The translations under genes and the position numbers were made by a program. From contig JAFDDB010000009.1 of NCBI GenBank assembly GCA_019311115.1, positions 1 through 51,202 on the forward strand: a stretch of 51,202 bases of DNA, written 5' to 3'. Below the pieces are notes generated by a model. It did not search any database and was not told where the DNA came from. It saw only the letters and a list, made by a program, of their open reading frames with translations. The stretch comes from Deltaproteobacteria bacterium (GTDB lineage Bacteria > Myxococcota_A > UBA9160 > SZUA-336). Of the stretch, positions 13,121 through 42,947 are shown piece after piece (position 1 is the first letter of the stretch; the number at the start of each line of letters is the position of its first letter).

Positions 13121-13549
13121 ATGGCGGAGGAGAAGGCGGCAAGTCCGCTTCCAGTCGTGCCCTTCCTGAAGATTCCCGACGACGGGGATCCCTATCTGGA
13201 AGGACACAAGTGCAAGAAGTGTTCAGCGATCTTCCTGGGCGAACGCGCGGTCTGCTCCAGCTGCGGCGCGCGGGAAGGGATCGAGCCCATACGACTCGCC
13301 AACAAGGGTGAGCTGTACGTGTACTCGATCGTGCACCGCTCGTTCCCCGGAGTCGAAGTTCCGTATGTCTCGGCCGTGGTCGACCTCGATGGGGGCGGCA
13401 CGGTAAAGGGCAACCTGATCGGCATCGATCCGGTGCCCGAGAAGATCGAGTTCGGCATGCCTGTCGAGACCGTGTTCAAGATCGCGCCGCGGAAGGACCG
13501 CGACGGCAACGAGTACCTCACTTACTACTTCCAGCCGCGCAGCGCCTGA
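13121..13549 (+). CDS. DUF35-type Zn-ribbon/OB-fold acyl-CoA-associated protein
   Basis: Zn ribbon CKKCSAIFLGERAVCSSCG followed by an OB-like region; next to a thiolase gene. Confidence 0.88.
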   Translation: MAEEKAASPLPVVPFLKIPDDGDPYLEGHKCKKCSAIFLGERAVCSSCGAREGIEPIRLANKGELYVYSIVHRSFPGVEVPYVSAVVDLDGGGTVKGNLIGIDPVPEKIEFGMPVETVFKIAPRKDRDGNEYLTYYFQPRSA

Positions 13550-13620: not shown

Positions 13621-14769
13621 ATGAGTGACGTCTACATCCTCGGAACGGACATGATCAAGTTCGGCCGTTTCCCCGACCGCACTGTTCCCGACCTCGGCGC
13701 GCAGGCCGCGCTGATGGCACTGGACGACGCGGGACTCTCGATCAACGACATGGAGGCGCTGTACTGCGGCAACCTGATGCAGTCGAACGCCATGGTCGGG
13801 CAGCGCATCCTGCGCGAGATCGGCCAGACCGGCGTGCCGGTGGTCAACTGCGCGAACGCCTGTGCGACCGGCGCCACCGCGTTCCGCGAGGGCTGGGCCG
13901 CGATCAAGGCCGGGCTCTACGACCTGGTACTGGTGGTCGGCGTCGAGCAGATGGGCAAGGCCGGCCTGCTCGGCGGCGGCGGCGGCAGCACGGGCATCCC
14001 GACCGAGGGCCTGCTCGGCTCCAGCACGATGCCCGCGGTCTTCGCAGAGGCGGGACAGGAGCACGCTCGCAAGTACGGCACGACCTTCGAGCAGTTCGCG
14101 AAGGTTTCGGTGAAGAACCACCACCACTCCACGAAGAACCCGAAGGCCATGTACCAGATCGAGACGCCGCTCGACAAGGTCATGGGCGCCGAGATGATCT
14201 CGTACCCGAACACGAAGCTGATGTGCTCGGTCAACGTGGACGGCTCGGCGGCGGCGGTGATCGCGTCCGAGAAGAAGGCCCGCGAGCTCGGCCTGGGCCG
14301 CGCCGTCAAGGTGTCCGCCTCGGTGCTGACGAGCGACCGCTTCACGGAGCGCGACCTCACCATGCCCGACGTCAACACCTGCACGCGCGAGGCCGCGGCC
14401 AAGGCCTACGAGATGGCCGGCATCGGCCCGGAGGACGTGAACCTGGTCGAGCTGCACGACTGCTTCGCGACCGCCGAGATCCTGCACTACGAGAACCTGG
14501 GTCTCTGCAAGGACGGCGAAGCGGGCCGGCTGATCGACGACGGCGAGGTGGCGCACGGGGGCCGGGTGCCGGTCAACGTGTCCGGCGGCCTGCTCTCGAA
14601 GGGCCACCCGCTCGGCGCCACGGGCGTCGCGAACATCTACGAGGTGACGACCCACCTGCGCGGCGAGGCGGGAGAGCGCCAGGTCGTGGGGGCGAAGGTC
14701 GGCCTCACCCACGTGATCGGGCTCGGCTCGGCCTGCGCGATCCACGTGCTGGAGCGCGTCTCCGACTGA
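13621..14769 (+). CDS. Thiolase-family protein (acetyl-CoA acetyltransferase-like), catalytic Cys retained
   Basis: PVVNCANACATGATAF (nucleophile Cys), SKGHPLGATG (His), GLGSACAIHVL (second Cys). Confidence 0.9.
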   Translation: MSDVYILGTDMIKFGRFPDRTVPDLGAQAALMALDDAGLSINDMEALYCGNLMQSNAMVGQRILREIGQTGVPVVNCANACATGATAFREGWAAIKAGLYDLVLVVGVEQMGKAGLLGGGGGSTGIPTEGLLGSSTMPAVFAEAGQEHARKYGTTFEQFAKVSVKNHHHSTKNPKAMYQIETPLDKVMGAEMISYPNTKLMCSVNVDGSAAAVIASEKKARELGLGRAVKVSASVLTSDRFTERDLTMPDVNTCTREAAAKAYEMAGIGPEDVNLVELHDCFATAEILHYENLGLCKDGEAGRLIDDGEVAHGGRVPVNVSGGLLSKGHPLGATGVANIYEVTTHLRGEAGERQVVGAKVGLTHVIGLGSACAIHVLERVSD

Positions 14770-35659: not shown

Positions 35660-36778
35660 CTAGGCGTTCGCGCGCAGATTCCGCCCGATCTTCTTCCGGT
35701 TGCGGTTGATGTCGCGGAGCTCTTCCATGGTGGCCTCGGCCAGGTCGGTTCCCACGACCTCGTCGTCCTCGGCCTTGAGTTCGTCCATGTCGACCCACTG
35801 GCCGTACACGCCGCGCGTCCGCTCCGTGATGATGCCGGCCTTGAGCAGCGTCTTGATCAGCACGCGGAAGATGTTGGTGTTCTCGGTCATCGACGAGCGG
35901 CGATCTTCGTCGCCGAACGCCTCGAGCACGGCCTTCCGCACCCACTGCCACTCGAGCCCGAACTCGCTGTAGATCTCCTGCTTCTGCTCGGCGTTCACCA
36001 GGTTGAAGAGCAGCGTCTGGAAGCACTTCGCGGCCCACAGTTCGACCTTCTCGTGCTCCTCCTCGGAGAGCGAGGGGACCGTCTTGTCGGCCCAGATCTT
36101 GCCGAACTTGTGGTGGAAGGCCTCGTCGGTCATGACCAACTGGACGAGCTTCTTGAGCAGCGGGTCCTGCGTCTGCGAGTGGATCGTCGCGAAGGCCCCC
36201 ATCGCCAGGCCCTCGATCAGCATCTGCATGCCGACGAGCTTCTTGTAGACCTCGGGCGCGCGCACCACCTCGTCGAGAAGCGACGCGAGAGTCGGTCCGC
36301 ACTTCAACGGCGTTCCCCAGCGCTGCGTGATGTAGCGCGAGAAGCCCGTCACGTGCCGCGCCTCTTCGCGCGCCTGGTTCGTGGCGTACTCCTGCGCGCC
36401 GGGATCGCGCAGGATCATCGACAGGCTCGAAGAGAGCGACAACGCGCCCTGCTCGCCGTGCAGGATGCTCGAGAGCATGAAGCGCGAGCTCTGGTTCGCG
36501 AGCCGGATCAGCTGCCCCTCGTCGAGTTCGTCCGCGACCGCGCAGTTGAACTCGACCGTCATCTCGCGCGGCAGGATGGTCTCGTTCTTCATGTCGAAGT
36601 CGTGGGCGAAGTCGATGTAGACGGGATCGGTCGGATCCCAGAAGTGGTCGACCGTCGAAGAGATGATCCCGTCGAAGGTGTCGGCGCGGTCGGCGTAGCG
36701 GTCCACCTCGATCATCGCCATGAAGTTGTCGCGATCAAGCGTGTTGTAGATCGGGTCGTGGGTAATGTGATCGGCCAT
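35660..36778 (-). CDS. Ferritin-like/R2-type diiron oxidase or desaturase-like protein
   Basis: Full four-helix diiron ligand pattern: LHGEQGA, AREEARHVTGF (EXXH), LIEGLAM, MTDEAFHHKFG (EXXH). Confidence 0.82.
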   Translation of the reverse strand: MADHITHDPIYNTLDRDNFMAMIEVDRYADRADTFDGIISSTVDHFWDPTDPVYIDFAHDFDMKNETILPREMTVEFNCAVADELDEGQLIRLANQSSRFMLSSILHGEQGALSLSSSLSMILRDPGAQEYATNQAREEARHVTGFSRYITQRWGTPLKCGPTLASLLDEVVRAPEVYKKLVGMQMLIEGLAMGAFATIHSQTQDPLLKKLVQLVMTDEAFHHKFGKIWADKTVPSLSEEEHEKVELWAAKCFQTLLFNLVNAEQKQEIYSEFGLEWQWVRKAVLEAFGDEDRRSSMTENTNIFRVLIKTLLKAGIITERTRGVYGQWVDMDELKAEDDEVVGTDLAEATMEELRDINRNRKKIGRNLRANA

Positions 36779-37574: not shown

Positions 37575-38264
37575 CTAGCCCAGGGGCCCGGTCAGCGAGG
37601 CCCGCTGCGAGATCTCGATCGAGTTGCCGTCGGGGTCGGTGACGAACGAGATCCGAGCCACCTTGCCGAGAGTGGTCGGCGGCATGCCCTCGCCGCCGCC
37701 GCGCGCCAGGATCCCGGCGTGCTCGGCATCGACGTCGTGCACCTGGATGGTGATGTAGCGGAACCCGGCCGCGCGGAGGGCGGCGGCCCCCGCGGCCTCG
37801 GACGTGGCCTCGGGATCGGCCTCGAAGCGCAGCAGCGAATCGCCGCAGAGGTAGCTCCGGGGCCCCTGCCGCTCGAACTGCAGGGACTCGCCGTAGAAGT
37901 GGTGGAACTCGTCCTCATCGCGTACACGAAGCGCCAGGCCGATCGCGGTGACGCCGTCGGTGCCGGGCGGAACGAGCGTGACGCGGTTGCCGTCGGGGTC
38001 CACGAGCGGCCGCACCTCGGCCAGACCCTCGCGCGCGATGAAGAGCTCGCGGTAGCCGCTCGGCGGGCTCTCGGGAAGGGGATCGCGAGAGTGGTTCACC
38101 TTCAACACCGAGCCGTTCATGCCGTGGCGGTGTTGCTGCACGCCGCGGCCTGCCGGCAGCAGCTCTTCGTAGGGCAGACCTGCCTCGTTCTGCCAGAACT
38201 CGAGCATGGGATCGCGCTTCTCGGTGTAGAGACCGACGTCGATGCGCGGCTTCGCGAGCCTCAT
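37575..38264 (-). CDS. Glyoxalase/VOC superfamily protein (two modules)
   Basis: Repeated VOC ends VDPDGNRVTLVPPG and VTDPDGNSIEISQR; HDVDAEHAGILARGG. Confidence 0.85.
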   Translation of the reverse strand: MRLAKPRIDVGLYTEKRDPMLEFWQNEAGLPYEELLPAGRGVQQHRHGMNGSVLKVNHSRDPLPESPPSGYRELFIAREGLAEVRPLVDPDGNRVTLVPPGTDGVTAIGLALRVRDEDEFHHFYGESLQFERQGPRSYLCGDSLLRFEADPEATSEAAGAAALRAAGFRYITIQVHDVDAEHAGILARGGGEGMPPTTLGKVARISFVTDPDGNSIEISQRASLTGPLG

Positions 38265-38320: not shown

Positions 38321-39127
38321 GTGCCACAGAAGTACTTCCTCATCGACGGCGTTGCGACGTTCGTCCACCACACGGGAGCGACCACGCTCCCCGGTGTCGC
38401 GCCGGCCTCGGGCGCCGGCGAGGCCATCGTCTGCCTGCACGGGGCCGGCGGCAACGGTGACCAGTTCGCGGCGCTGCTGGCGAAGCTCGCAGACCGGCAC
38501 AGCCCGATCGCCTTCGACCAGCCCGGCCACGGCCGCTCCGCCGGCCTCGACAGCCTGGGTTCGGTCGAGCGGATGGCGGCGTTCGCGGCGGCCTTCTGCG
38601 CCAAGCTCGGACTCGAACGCCCCGTCCTGTTGGGCCACGGACTCGGCGCCGCCGTCGCGTTGGAGTACGCGCTCGAGCATCCGGACGGGGTCCGGGCGCT
38701 GGTGCTCTGCTCGCATGGCGCCCGCAGCGAACTCGGGGCGGCCGAAGTCGACCACATGCGCCGCGTGAGCGAAGGCAAGGAGCGGCGGCCCTTCTCCAAG
38801 GACCTGTTCGCGCCGGACTGCTCCCCGGAGCTGCTTCGCGCCGGCTTCATGCAGGGACTCAAGACCGACCCGCGCGCCACCTACGGCGACCTACGCGCCG
38901 CCACGGGATGGAGCGCCGAGGACAGGCTCGGCAACGTCTCGCCGCCCGTCCTCGTCGTGCGCGGCGAGCACGAGCGCGAGGGCGTGGTGGCGCTGACCGA
39001 TGCGCTCGCCGCGGGCATCGCCGGAGCCCGCACGGTCACCCTGCCGGGCGCGGGACACATGCTGCCGCTCGAGCAGCCCGAGGCGCTCGCCGCCGCGGTC
39101 TGCGATTTCCTCGCGGAGCCGTCGTGA
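38321..39127 (+). CDS. Alpha/beta-hydrolase-fold protein with substituted nucleophile elbow (GHGLG)
   Basis: VCLHGAGGNGDQF, FDQPGHGRS, LLGHGLGAAVALEYA, VVRGEHE, GAGHMLPLEQPE. Confidence 0.9.
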   Translation: MPQKYFLIDGVATFVHHTGATTLPGVAPASGAGEAIVCLHGAGGNGDQFAALLAKLADRHSPIAFDQPGHGRSAGLDSLGSVERMAAFAAAFCAKLGLERPVLLGHGLGAAVALEYALEHPDGVRALVLCSHGARSELGAAEVDHMRRVSEGKERRPFSKDLFAPDCSPELLRAGFMQGLKTDPRATYGDLRAATGWSAEDRLGNVSPPVLVVRGEHEREGVVALTDALAAGIAGARTVTLPGAGHMLPLEQPEALAAAVCDFLAEPS

Positions 39128-40281
39128 CGCTGTCGGGCAACATCGCGATTGCCGGCGTCTACGAGCATCCCACGCGCTGGGCGCCGGACAAGTCCGACTA
39201 CCAGATCATGGGCGAGTCGGCGCGCGGCGCGCTCGAGGACTGTGGCCTCGGGATCGACGACGTCGACGGCCTCTTCGCGGCCGGCATGGGCATGGGTGTG
39301 ATGGGCGTCGTCACGCTGGCCGAGTACCTGGACCTGAAGCCGCGCTACCTCGACGGGACGAACATCGGCGGCTCGTCGTTCGTCGCCCACGTGAACCACG
39401 CGGCGGGGGCCATCCACGCGGGACTCTGCGACGTCGCGCTGATCCTCTACGGCAGCACCGCCGCGTCGCAGGCCATGGCGATCGGCACGGGTGGCCGCGG
39501 CGGACAGGACGCACACGCGTCGTTCATCTCGCCGTACGGGCTCACCACCGTCGGCAGCTACGCGTTGGTCGCACAGCGCCACATGCACGAGTACGGCACG
39601 CGCCCCGAGCAACTGGCCGAGATCGCGGTCACCATGCGCAAGCACGCGTCGCTGAACCCGGCGGCCAAGATGCGCAACGAGATCAGCGTGGCGGACGTGC
39701 TCGAGAGCCGCGTCATCTCCGACCCGCTCCACCTGCTGGACTGCTGCATCATCAGCGACGGGGGCGGTGCGATCGTCGTGACCAGCGCCGAGCGGGCACG
39801 CGACCTTGCGAAGCCGCGCGTGCTGCTTCGCGGCTGCGGCGAAGCGGTCTGCCACCAGGAGACCGGCGCGCCGGACCTGCTGACGATCGCGGCCCGGCAG
39901 TCGAGCGAGCAGGCCTTCCGCATGTCGGGCCTCACGCAGGACGACGTCGACGTCGCGGCGATCTACGACTCCTTCACCATCACGCTGCTCGTCACGCTCG
40001 AGAACCTGGGCTTCTGCAAGCCCGGCGAGGGCGGAGCCTTCGTGGAGGGCGGGCGCATCGGACTCGGCGGCGCCCTGCCCGTCAACCCGGACGGCGGCGG
40101 CCTGTCATCGAACCACCCGGGCATGCGCGGCATCTTCCTGGTCATCGAGGCCGCGCGCCAACTTCGAGGCGAGTGCGGACCGCGCCAGGTCGAGGGCGCG
40201 CAGGTGGGACTCGTGCACGGCACGGGCGGCACGCTCGGCGTCGCGCACAGCGGGGCGACTCTCTTGCTGACGGGGGACTGA
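39124..40281 (+). CDS. Thiolase-superfamily protein lacking both catalytic Cys (Ltp2/aldolase-like or lipid-transfer type)
   Basis: GTG start in GTGA overlap; NIGGSSFVAHVNHAAGAIHAGLCDVALI, SSNHPGMRGIF, GGTLGVAHSGATLL; conserved fold but no Cys at the canonical positions. Confidence 0.85.
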   Translation: MTLSGNIAIAGVYEHPTRWAPDKSDYQIMGESARGALEDCGLGIDDVDGLFAAGMGMGVMGVVTLAEYLDLKPRYLDGTNIGGSSFVAHVNHAAGAIHAGLCDVALILYGSTAASQAMAIGTGGRGGQDAHASFISPYGLTTVGSYALVAQRHMHEYGTRPEQLAEIAVTMRKHASLNPAAKMRNEISVADVLESRVISDPLHLLDCCIISDGGGAIVVTSAERARDLAKPRVLLRGCGEAVCHQETGAPDLLTIAARQSSEQAFRMSGLTQDDVDVAAIYDSFTITLLVTLENLGFCKPGEGGAFVEGGRIGLGGALPVNPDGGGLSSNHPGMRGIFLVIEAARQLRGECGPRQVEGAQVGLVHGTGGTLGVAHSGATLLLTGD

Positions 40282-40688
40282 TGGCAGAGATCGAGCACCC
40301 CAAGCCCTTCGCCGACTGGGAGACGCGGGCCTACTGGGAGGGCTGCGGCCGCGGCGAGATCGTTCTCCAACGCTGTGGCGCCTGCAGCAAAGTGCAACAC
40401 CGTCCGCGCGCGCTCTGCGCTTCGTGCCTGTCGGGAGACATCGAGCACTTCGTGGCGAGTGGCCGCGGCCAGGTCTACACCTTCACCGTGACCCTGCAGA
40501 ACAACGCGCCCGGCTTCCGCGAGGCCTGTCCCTACGTGCTGGCTTACGTCGAACTCGAGGAAGGCCCCCGGCTGCTCACGAATGTGGTCGGCTGCGCGCC
40601 CGACGCCGTGAGCATCGGCATGCCCGTGGTCGCAGACTTCACCGCGCCCGACCGGGACCTAGCCGTGCCCAGGTTCCGGCCCGCATGA
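40281..40688 (+). CDS. DUF35-type Zn-ribbon/OB-fold protein
   Basis: WEGCGRGEIVLQRCGACSKVQHRPRALCASC, GRGQVYTFTV; immediately downstream of the thiolase-like gene. Confidence 0.9.
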   Translation: MAEIEHPKPFADWETRAYWEGCGRGEIVLQRCGACSKVQHRPRALCASCLSGDIEHFVASGRGQVYTFTVTLQNNAPGFREACPYVLAYVELEEGPRLLTNVVGCAPDAVSIGMPVVADFTAPDRDLAVPRFRPA

Positions 40689-41311
40689 TCGTCGACCTGC
40701 ACAACCACTCGATCAAGTCCGACGACGGCCGGGCAAAGGTCGAGAACTACTGCCAGTGGATCTCCAAGCGGGGTCTCGAGGTCGACGGCTTCGTGCTGAC
40801 CGAGCACCGCCAGTTCGACGGCGACTCGGACTACCGCCCGCTCGAGGACGCCCACGGCCTGCGCATCCTGAAGGGCGCCGAGGTCGAGACCGACTACGGC
40901 CACGTCCTGGTCTTCGGGGTCAACGAGGACCTGCTGCAGGCCTTCGACTTCACCCGTCTCGACCTGCCGCTCGAACTGGTCATCCGCGAGTCCGAGCGCT
41001 GCGGCGCGATCGCCGTGCCCTGCCATCCCGGCCGCGCGACGGTCGGCATGTGCGCGCACTACGAGGCTCGCGGCGCGGTCGATGGCGTCCGCGTAATCGA
41101 GACCTACAATGGCGGCAGCCGCGGCGGCGAGAACGAGGACGCGATCGCGCTCGCCGAGCGGTACGGGTACTCGGGCATCGGCGGCAGCGATGCCCACATC
41201 GTCAGTCACATCGGCCGCTGCGTGACCCGGTTCGACCGCGAGATCCGCGATGAGCAGGACCTGGTCGACGCGCTCACCGACGGCAAGTTCGAGGCCATCT
41301 CTTGGATCTAG
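40685..41311 (+). CDS. PHP-domain metal-dependent phosphoesterase-like protein
   Basis: IVDLHNHSIKSDDG, VLTEHRQF, GAEVETDYGHVLVFG, AVPCHPGR, GIGGSDAHIVSHIG. ATGA overlap with the upstream stop. Confidence 0.9.
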   Translation: MIVDLHNHSIKSDDGRAKVENYCQWISKRGLEVDGFVLTEHRQFDGDSDYRPLEDAHGLRILKGAEVETDYGHVLVFGVNEDLLQAFDFTRLDLPLELVIRESERCGAIAVPCHPGRATVGMCAHYEARGAVDGVRVIETYNGGSRGGENEDAIALAERYGYSGIGGSDAHIVSHIGRCVTRFDREIRDEQDLVDALTDGKFEAISWI

Positions 41312-41730
41312 CAGCACTCAAGCGAGACTGGACCGGGTTCGAGTTCGACACTGCCGAGTTCGAGGTGACCGAGCAGCAGATGCTCGACTTCGCCATCAGC
41401 TGTGGCGAGACCGAAGCCCGCTTCACGGACCCGTCGCACGAGGACTTCCGGGCGCCGACTACATTCACCGCCAAGTTCTCCGGCCGGCGGATGCTCCCCG
41501 AGGAGTTCCCGCAGCTTTCCCGACGCGGCTTCGACGCCGGCAAGTGCGTGGAGGCTCTCGCGCCCGTTCGCGCCGGCGACAGGCTGACCGGCACCAGCAC
41601 GATCCATGACATCTTCGAGAAGACCGGCCGGTCGGGAACGATGATCTTCATCGTCCACCGCATGGAGTTCCGGAACCAGTCGGACGAGGTGGTCTCGATC
41701 GTCGACTGGCGCATGGTGCAGCAGCCGTGA
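41302..41730 (+). CDS. MaoC/FAS1-like dehydratase-domain (hotdog) protein
   Basis: VTEQQMLDFAISCGETEARFTDP, FRAPTTFTAKFSG, PVRAGDRLTGTSTIHDIFEKTGRSGTMIFIVHRMEFRNQ; TTG start inferred. Confidence 0.82.
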   Translation: MDLAALKRDWTGFEFDTAEFEVTEQQMLDFAISCGETEARFTDPSHEDFRAPTTFTAKFSGRRMLPEEFPQLSRRGFDAGKCVEALAPVRAGDRLTGTSTIHDIFEKTGRSGTMIFIVHRMEFRNQSDEVVSIVDWRMVQQP

Positions 41731-42140
41731 GCGCCCGCAGCTTCGACGACGTGAGCTTCGGGGACGATCTCGAGGAGATGAAGACCGACGTCAGCCTCGA
41801 CCGCATCAAGCGGTTCACCGGCGCGGCAGGGATGACGTTCGAGCGGTTCACCAACCACGAGGCCGCGCGCAAGGAAGGCCTGCCCGGCGCAATCGTGCCC
41901 GGCATCATGAGCCAGGGGATCCTGGCCGCGATGATCCACCGCTGGGCGCCCGGCTCGACGATCGTCAAGATCGACACCGTGTTCCGCGCGCCCCTGCTGG
42001 TGGACTCGGACCCCGTCTGCCGGGGCGTCGTGACCGACATGAACAAGGCCGACCGCACCGTCGAGGTGGACCTGACGATCGTCAACGAGGCGAACGAGAC
42101 GCGCGTTCTCGGGACTGCGACCGTCCGCCTCGAGGGCTAG
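41727..42140 (+). CDS. MaoC-like (hotdog) dehydratase
   Basis: SLDRIKRFTGAAGMTFERFTNHEAARKEGLPGAIVPGIMSQGILAAMIHRWAPG; GTGA overlap with the upstream gene. Confidence 0.82.
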   Translation: MSARSFDDVSFGDDLEEMKTDVSLDRIKRFTGAAGMTFERFTNHEAARKEGLPGAIVPGIMSQGILAAMIHRWAPGSTIVKIDTVFRAPLLVDSDPVCRGVVTDMNKADRTVEVDLTIVNEANETRVLGTATVRLEG

Positions 42141-42155
42141 CACTCCGGAGGTTTC

Positions 42156-42947
42156 TTGGAATTCGACCTGGTCCGCTACGGGATCGAGGACGGCGTCGCT
42201 CGGATCACGATCGACCGCCCGCAGGCGCGTAACGCGCTGAACCGCGAGGCCTATCGCCAACTCGAGGGCGCGTTCCGCGAGGCGCAGCGCGACCCCGCGG
42301 TCCGCTGCGTGGTCCTGACGGGGGAGGACCCGTCGTTCTGCAGCGGCGACGACGTGAAGGAGCTGATGTCCGGGCTCCCCGACGAGATGGCCCGCAGCGA
42401 GCGGCCCGTTCGCGCGCGCCCGACGCCCGCGGCGCTCGCCGTCCTGGAGTGCGATCGGCCCGTGATCGCAGCGGTCAACGGTGCGGCGGTCGGCTGGGGC
42501 ATGGACCTGACACTCTTCTGCGACATTCGCATCGCGTCGGAGCGCGCACGCTTCGCCGAGCTCTTCGTCAAGCGCGGCCTGGTCTCGGACATCGGCGGAC
42601 TGTGGCGCCTGCCCCAGGTCGTCGGACCGTCGAAGGCCGCCGAGCTGCTCTTCACCGGCGACGTGATCGACGCAGCGGAGGCCGAGCGCATCGGCCTCGT
42701 CTCGTCGGTCGTGCCGCACGACCAGCTCATCCCGTCGGCGCTCGAGCTCGCGGCCAGGATCGCCGCCAACCCTCCGCTGGCGGTGCGCCACCTGAAGGAA
42801 GGCCTGCGGCTGGCGAGCCACGGCGACGTCCACGAGCTGGGCGCGTGGGTGGGCCAGACGCTGGCGCGGCTGTTCCAGACCGAAGACCACAGGGAGGGCG
42901 TGCAGAGCTTCCTCGAGAAGCGCGCGCCGAAGTTCAAGGGACGCTGA
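42156..42947 (+). CDS. Enoyl-CoA hydratase/isomerase family protein
   Basis: [68 protein letters not shown] start inferred. Confidence 0.93.

Follow-up and report, generated by a model that had tools for sequence, protein, structure and literature searches.

The contig JAFDDB010000009.1 of a Deltaproteobacteria bacterium (assembly GCA_019311115.1) was analysed over its entire length of 51,202 nucleotides, referred to here as the window. It belongs to a draft genome of 4.2 Mb that is 94% complete and whose closest database relatives are labelled mostly Myxococcota. Six genes on its forward strand, ABH1, THIO, DUF35, PHP, FAS1DH and MAOC, form an operon at 38321-42140 in which every junction overlaps: GTGA at 39124, TGATG at 40279, ATGA at 40685, a 10-base overlap at 41302 and GTGA at 41727. 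The subject of this study is the second gene product, a thiolase-fold protein without the catalytic cysteines that we regard as a putative retro-aldolase, together with its conserved gene cassette. A first-pass annotation of the window had recognized THIO, the DUF35 gene directly after it, and two adjacent, GTGA-coupled hot-dog genes. It overlooked ABH1, with which the operon begins, and the PHP gene that intervenes between DUF35 and the hot-dog pair.

Table 1 Features of the operon and the gene directly downstream of it.
Feature	Position	Strand	Basis of assignment
ABH1, alpha/beta-hydrolase fold, first gene of the operon	38321-39127	+	Pfam Abhydrolase_6, E=1e-26
THIO, Cys-less thiolase fold, putative retro-aldolase, GTG start, 385 amino acids	39124-40281	+	Thiolase_C_1, E=3e-55
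DUF35 protein, standalone, zinc ribbon and OB fold	40281-40688	+	zf-ChsH2 and OB_ChsH2_C, both over Pfam cut-offs
PHP-domain metallohydrolase, CehA/McbA-like, 208 amino acids	40685-41311	+	PHP_C, E=8e-19
FAS1DH, hot-dog subunit, HadA/ChsH2 (inert partner) type	41302-41730	+	Pfam FAS1_DH_region, E=4e-16
MAOC, hot-dog subunit, HadB/ChsH1 type	41727-42140	+	Pfam MaoC_dehydratas
Crotonase-fold enoyl-CoA hydratase/isomerase, directly 3' of the operon	42156-42947	+	ECH_1, E=5e-64

The active-site columns of THIO were read from an alignment of 45 sequences, and invariance was counted over 80 orthologues. The column of the thiolase nucleophile Cys is occupied by Gly83 (GGSSFV, compared with ACATGA in the paralog encoded at 13621 of the window), a residue also found there in Sal, and the Cys column of the HDCF motif by Ser283 of the sequence YDSF. 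The loss of both cysteines that characterize SCP2-type thiolases had been noted by the first-pass annotation, which assigned the second of them to the C-terminal SACAIH motif; in these enzymes it resides in HDCF (PMC12329534). The paralog at 13621-14769 is preceded by a DUF35 gene at 13157-13549 and retains both catalytic cysteines (ACATG, HDCF). By these motifs it is an ordinary SCP2-type thiolase, and it is usable as an internal control. The assignment of THIO itself to the thiolase fold with an NHPG His is borne out by its family profile, by its fold match to PDB entry 4U4E and by the presence of the His in 80/80 orthologues. Residues Y281, D282, S283, N330, H331 and H365 are invariant in all 80, and YDSF and NHPG together make up the active-site motif. 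At His331 and His365 THIO retains the ancestral thiolase state, which was lost in Ltp2 and Sal. Mean column identity is 78% for THIO, the highest of the four aligned families (PHP 65, MAOC 57 and FAS1DH 50%).

Two related aldolases, Ltp2 for the C3 and Sal for the C5 side chain of steroids, provide the reference for these residues. The catalytic base of TcLtp2 is Tyr294, in the sequence YDHF, and its acid is Tyr344, whereas CtSal employs Tyr302 and Cys304 of the sequence YDCY and carries Gln352 at the position of Tyr344 (PMC12329534). Tyr281 of THIO corresponds to the Tyr that serves as the base in both enzymes, His331 occupies the Tyr344 column of Ltp2, and Ser283 occupies the Cys304 column of Sal. 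The comparison with the Tyr residues of Ltp2 suggested earlier thus recovers the base Tyr and places a His at the site of the second Tyr. THIO shares with Ltp2 the absence of the nucleophile Cys, but it has YDSF and His331 in 80/80 orthologues rather than YDHF and Tyr344, and Ser283, likewise in 80/80, rather than the catalytic Cys of YDCY. With the Tyr kept, a Ser at the Cys304 column and a His at the Tyr344 column, THIO is of neither the Ltp2 nor the Sal type. A Tyr/His pair appears to us chemically reasonable for retro-aldol cleavage. Four further residues, C102, C207, C208 and C298, are invariant in 80/80. A replacement catalytic Cys elsewhere in THIO was considered and rejected; C207 and C298 align with cysteines of Ltp2 or SCP2-type thiolases that lie away from the catalytic positions, and no conserved Cys was seen to take over as nucleophile.

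In the phylogenetic tree, the Cys-less proteins, including Ltp2 and Sal, split from the Cys-thiolases with support of 100/100. The identity of an ordinary condensing thiolase is rejected by this placement and by Gly83 and Ser283, in keeping with the earlier annotation. The YDSF proteins form a clade supported at 99/98 and the cassette orthologues one supported at 100/99; Ltp2 and Sal lie outside the YDSF clade. The fold search returned 4U4E as the best match, with template modelling (TM) scores of 0.84-0.90, followed by the complexes Sal-Shy(DUF35) (9MYR) and Ltp2-ChsH2(DUF35) (6OK1). Loop 115-140 of the THIO model is of low confidence, and this region is disordered in Sal and Ltp2 (PMC12329534). 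The YDSF type is widespread and occurs in Cupriavidus, Variovorax, Rhizobium, Sulfitobacter and haloarchaeal plasmids. The lipid-transfer protein profile NF005892 gave no match above its cut-off in the source genome.

Other Cys-less or related proteins were encountered in the course of the searches. One from the same genome (L141:8109-9667, G000:C206) is thiolase-like, carries YDAF for YDSF and MHSG for NHPG, has its own adjoining DUF35 gene, and is possibly yet another variant. In an SCP2-thiolase-like protein (L006, G000:C78) the nucleophile is replaced by Ser, in the sequence ASASGS, and the second motif reads HDAF. At a third locus (L140:9193-11628, G019) the Cys-less thiolase-like protein is of the YDCF type and is accompanied by DUF35 and by a distant hot-dog pair bearing an HRIH motif; the locus adjoins an apparent AMP-ligase gene and may represent an intact hydratase-aldolase set.

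The DUF35 protein retains the C4 zinc motif C32/C35/C46/C49 and combines this ribbon with an OB fold, as does ChsH2, whose DUF35 domain is its closest match (6OK1_B, E=9e-29). The gene lies beside THIO in 79/80 loci, and binding of the two products to one another is predicted. The DUF35 gene, described as separate by the first-pass annotation, is indeed standalone. The arrangement is not special, because it has been published for Mycolicibacterium neoaurum, where the aldolase Atf1 has a standalone DUF35 protein, ChsH4, as its partner (PMC10398937), and because it is common in the YDSF family. A standalone DUF35 gene follows the YDSF gene in Halomarina and Pseudosulfitobacter, and a DUF35 match follows it in Cupriavidus and Rhizobium. 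In Variovorax the DUF35 gene is ~5 kb from the YDSF gene on the other strand, and ~4 kb from the YDSF gene lies a MaoC gene whose product keeps both Asp and His. The MaoC and DUF35 parts of Comamonas TA441 ChsH2, when expressed separately, keep hydratase and aldolase activity (PMC12502768).

Both FAS1DH and MAOC belong to the hot-dog fold. By hmmsearch, FAS1DH matches HadA and ChsH2, the inert members of their pairs, and the model of MAOC, with a predicted local distance difference test (pLDDT) score of 96.2, matches HadB, ChsH1 (4WNB_B) and PhaJ. MAOC aligns with HadB without gaps across the catalytic loop, yet the column of the catalytic His is occupied by Phe41 in 66/66 sequences and the Asp column, position 36, is never Asp (Met in 43, His in 15, others in the remainder; Met36 in the window). 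Arg40, beside Phe41, is invariant. In FAS1DH the Asp column holds Glu or Asp in 68/68 sequences (Glu36 in the window), and the His column holds Phe or Tyr in 67/68 (Phe41 in the window) and His in 1/68. Neither subunit of the window thus provides the Asp/His dyad of a MaoC heteromeric hydratase. The dyad of ChsH1-ChsH2 is carried by ChsH1 only (PMC11321319), so its loss in MAOC removes the known hydratase mechanism. A canonical MaoC hydratase was rejected on these columns, neither subunit having the His and the HadB/ChsH1-like one lacking the Asp as well, and the hydratase half of the earlier proposal is contradicted by the sequence. The exclusion applies to the canonical dyad alone, and the pair may be an enzyme that uses other residues. 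The crotonase-fold protein encoded directly 3' of the operon could be a possible hydratase in the window. It lies outside the conserved core, with homologues in just 13 loci and on mixed strands.

In PHP, residues H6, H8, H41, E66, H114, D169 and H171 are invariant over 26 sequences, and the residues of the motifs HxH, EHR, EVE, CHPGR and GGSDxH show little or no variation among the orthologues aligned. The CehA_McbA profile matches at E=5e-21 with 75.3 bits, below its cut-off of 80, and no relative was found in the PDB at 1e-3. An active, metal-dependent hydrolase is the probable identity of PHP. The nucleophile-elbow Ser of ABH1 is replaced in the window (GHGLG), and the Ser107 column contains G in 42, S in 25, D in 9 and E in 1 of 77 sequences, such that Ser is gone in 52/77; the triad His is gone in 31/77 (Arg in 25). 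The Ser is lost in most Myxococcota and Acidimicrobiia orthologues, often together with the His, whereas both are kept in most sampled Binatota. ABH1 may accordingly be viewed as a hydrolase that is becoming a pseudo-enzyme.

Conservation of the operon was read in the 80 best database hits (loci) of THIO. The complete six-gene set is present in 65/80, in Myxococcota, Binatota and Acidimicrobiia, with constant order and strand. ABH1 is found in 77, PHP in 75, and FAS1DH and MAOC in 67 each, and many of the absences are contig ends. Because the same arrangement is seen in dozens of genomes, a chance grouping is excluded. One subclade (L090, L098, L101, L103, L106, L107) has PHP and lacks the hot-dog pair within the stretch examined, and many Acidimicrobiia loci carry, between PHP and FAS1DH, an additional ADP-ribosylglycohydrolase-family gene that runs on the opposite strand (e.g. 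L079:10216-11289). When 59 relatives were searched for both THIO (E<=1e-100) and PHP (E<=1e-55), the two were found together in 31, THIO alone in 1, PHP alone in none and neither in 27 (Fisher p=6e-16, with no correction for kinship). PHP was found in 1/198 of the class of an Acidimicrobiia genome, a sample from a larger group that is not informative. In four genomes (L143-L146) PHP, FAS1DH and MAOC form a unit apart from THIO-DUF35, with no ABH1 nearby, and in four others (L133, L135, L147, L148) this triad faces a sister THIO-DUF35 pair in convergent orientation. The co-presence of the two parts despite rearrangement argues that they are modules belonging together. Two loci (L100, L107) derive from metagenome-assembled genomes labelled Klebsiella pneumoniae; their cassettes, at 66-67% identity, group with Binatota or deltaproteobacterial sequences, and the labels look wrong.

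A tandem acyl-coenzyme A (acyl-CoA) dehydrogenase pair lies directly upstream of the cassette in nine loci labelled mostly Myxococcota or Deltaproteobacteria (L039, L041, L043, L044, L045, L053, L058, L064, L089). The best PDB relatives of the single pair examined (L045) are two different subunits of 6WY8 (Tcur3481 and Tcur3483) and 4X28, which we take to be heteromeric steroid-CoA dehydrogenases. Acidimicrobiia cassettes are surrounded by genes for PhyH, an APH-type kinase, a nitroreductase and one or two dehydrogenases; the neighbours, including dehydrogenases, CoA-transferases and PhyH, look catabolic. A dehydrogenase pair, a hot-dog pair, an aldolase and DUF35 are also the components of the igr operon, and by analogy with this layout a bulky or branched acyl-CoA is the likely substrate class. 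A steroid is possible. HsaD, the sole steroid-ring marker tried and a weak test of ring degradation, gave no match above cut-off in the source genome. Upstream of the operon, on the opposite strand, an AurF-like diiron protein (35660-36778) and a VOC-family protein (37575-38264) were recognized by eye only, and no conserved link to the cassette was seen.

Taken together, the data are best accommodated by a retro-aldolase module with a third type of active site, beside those of Ltp2 and Sal, that acts on a bulky acyl-CoA and is joined by a PHP/hot-dog module; we assign this reading a probability of about 0.55. The six overlapping genes would form a single acyl-CoA catabolic operon whose substrate, probably bulky or branched, is activated beforehand by acyl-CoA dehydrogenases. 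THIO, buttressed by DUF35, would cleave a β-hydroxyacyl-CoA, with a carbonyl compound as one product and a shortened acyl-CoA as the other. Tyr281 would be the base acting on the β-hydroxyl, His331 the likely proton donor to the enolate, and Ser283 possibly a helper in the oxyanion hole. PHP, FAS1DH and MAOC would be a second module cooperating with the aldolase, in which the hot-dog pair, a HadAB/ChsH1H2-like heterodimer without the dyad, may bind or present the acyl-CoA or perform other chemistry via its single remaining acid.

Several observations weigh against this interpretation. Sal C304S, with Ser in the same column as Ser283 of THIO, has no detectable activity (PMC12329534), so that Ser should not be assumed to replace Cys in the manner of Sal and His331 would have to be the acid. 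The loss of the hydratase dyad leaves the source of the β-hydroxyacyl-CoA unclear, and in the window no acyl-CoA dehydrogenase gene adjoins the operon. Ltp2 and Sal are on long branches, which renders their exact branching order unsure, and no demonstrated reaction was encountered for any YDSF-family member.

The strongest alternative is the split Ltp2/ChsH1-ChsH2 system envisaged by the first-pass annotation, in which the MaoC pair hydrates an enoyl-CoA, an Ltp2-like enzyme cleaves the product and DUF35 is encoded by its own gene. The fold families and gene types agree with it, as do the igr-like dehydrogenase pair in nine relatives and the acid that FAS1DH invariably keeps; the grouping of THIO with Ltp2 and Sal, its base Tyr and the closeness of its DUF35 partner to ChsH2 survive from that proposal. 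We nonetheless consider it unlikely as a whole, in view of the replacement of the catalytic His by Phe in every MAOC and by Phe or Tyr in nearly every FAS1DH, the missing Asp of MAOC, an active site unlike that of Ltp2 or Sal, and PHP and ABH1 genes that it leaves unexplained. What emerges from it is a retro-aldolase half that is plausible and, as a new active-site variant, better supported than before. THIO-DUF35 could also catalyse bond formation instead of cleavage, by an aldol- or Claisen-type condensation or by acyl transfer, in the manner of PhlBC or the archaeal thiolase-DUF35-HMGCS complexes. DUF35-bound PhlC and the archaeal thiolase do so and are structural relatives of THIO, but the archaeal thiolase, the SCP2 thiolase and BbsB retain the nucleophile Cys that is Gly in THIO, the PhlC relative in the fold search is named by its C88S variant, and the neighbouring genes point to catabolism, making this direction improbable. 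Least probable is a non-catalytic THIO, a pseudo-enzyme that acts as a structural or CoA-binding scaffold and along with other degenerated enzymes serves PHP as the only catalyst; the intact metal-type residues of PHP and the losses of the Ser in most ABH1 orthologues, of the dyad in MAOC and of both cysteines in THIO are compatible with it, but the high column identity of THIO and the invariance of Tyr281, Ser283, His331 and His365 exceed what a dead scaffold needs.

What is most unusual about the cassette is that YDSF and NHPG are invariant in the active site of THIO and that THIO is strictly linked to PHP and to hot-dog subunits lacking the dyad. No published account of the six-gene cassette was found in the open-access literature. 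We tentatively suggest that the Tyr/His aldolase, PHP and the hot-dog pair might constitute an undescribed route for bulky acyl-CoAs in Myxococcota, Binatota and Acidimicrobiia, one in which no canonical MaoC hydratase would supply the substrate for C-C cleavage. The experimentally characterized thiolase-fold aldolases that we found all come from steroid side-chain degradation, and enzymes of this kind are sought for biocatalysis. Proteins of the YDSF group occur widely in bacteria and in halophilic archaea; the group has a solved structure, 4U4E, but we found no function for its members. A third catalytic type, if true, would widen the chemistry of the fold and make many "acetyl-CoA acetyltransferase" annotations testable, and the joining of PHP and an apparently inert hot-dog pair to an aldolase suggests that uncultured lineages have a degradation step not yet described.

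Comparison with characterized systems places the cassette as follows. Ltp2-ChsH2(DUF35) of Thermomonospora curvata has in common with it the Cys-less thiolase fold, the DUF35 partner, the catalytic Tyr in Y-D-x-F and the types of neighbouring genes; THIO differs in its YDSF and His331, its separate DUF35 gene and its own clade. Sal-Shy(DUF35), the bile acid aldolase of Comamonas testosteroni (PMC12329534), shares the Cys-less fold, Gly at the nucleophile site, the catalytic Tyr, the DUF35 partner and a flexible active-site loop. It differs in Cys304 and Gln352, where THIO has Ser283 and His331, and in the zinc motif, which is C3H1 in Shy and C4 in the window as in ChsH2. 4U4E of Sphaerobacter thermophilus, a structural genomics entry recorded merely as a putative thiolase, is the closest solved structure, with a common YDSF/THPG/HGTGG active site and 49% identity in the structure alignment, and belongs to a different subclade. 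Atf1-ChsH4 likewise combines a thiolase-like aldolase with a standalone DUF35 protein, of 138 amino acids, but Atf1 is 56% identical to Sal1 and acts on sterol side chains, and its operon, in which PHP and a hot-dog pair are absent, encodes a reductase and a regulator (PMC10398937). HadAB and ChsH1-ChsH2 are two-subunit pairs in which HadA/ChsH2 correspond to FAS1DH and HadB/ChsH1 to MAOC, the catalytic-type subunit that here is without both Asp and His. Relative to the Ltp2-associated igr operon, the cassette has a hot-dog pair without the dyad and two added genes, those of PHP and the alpha/beta-hydrolase.

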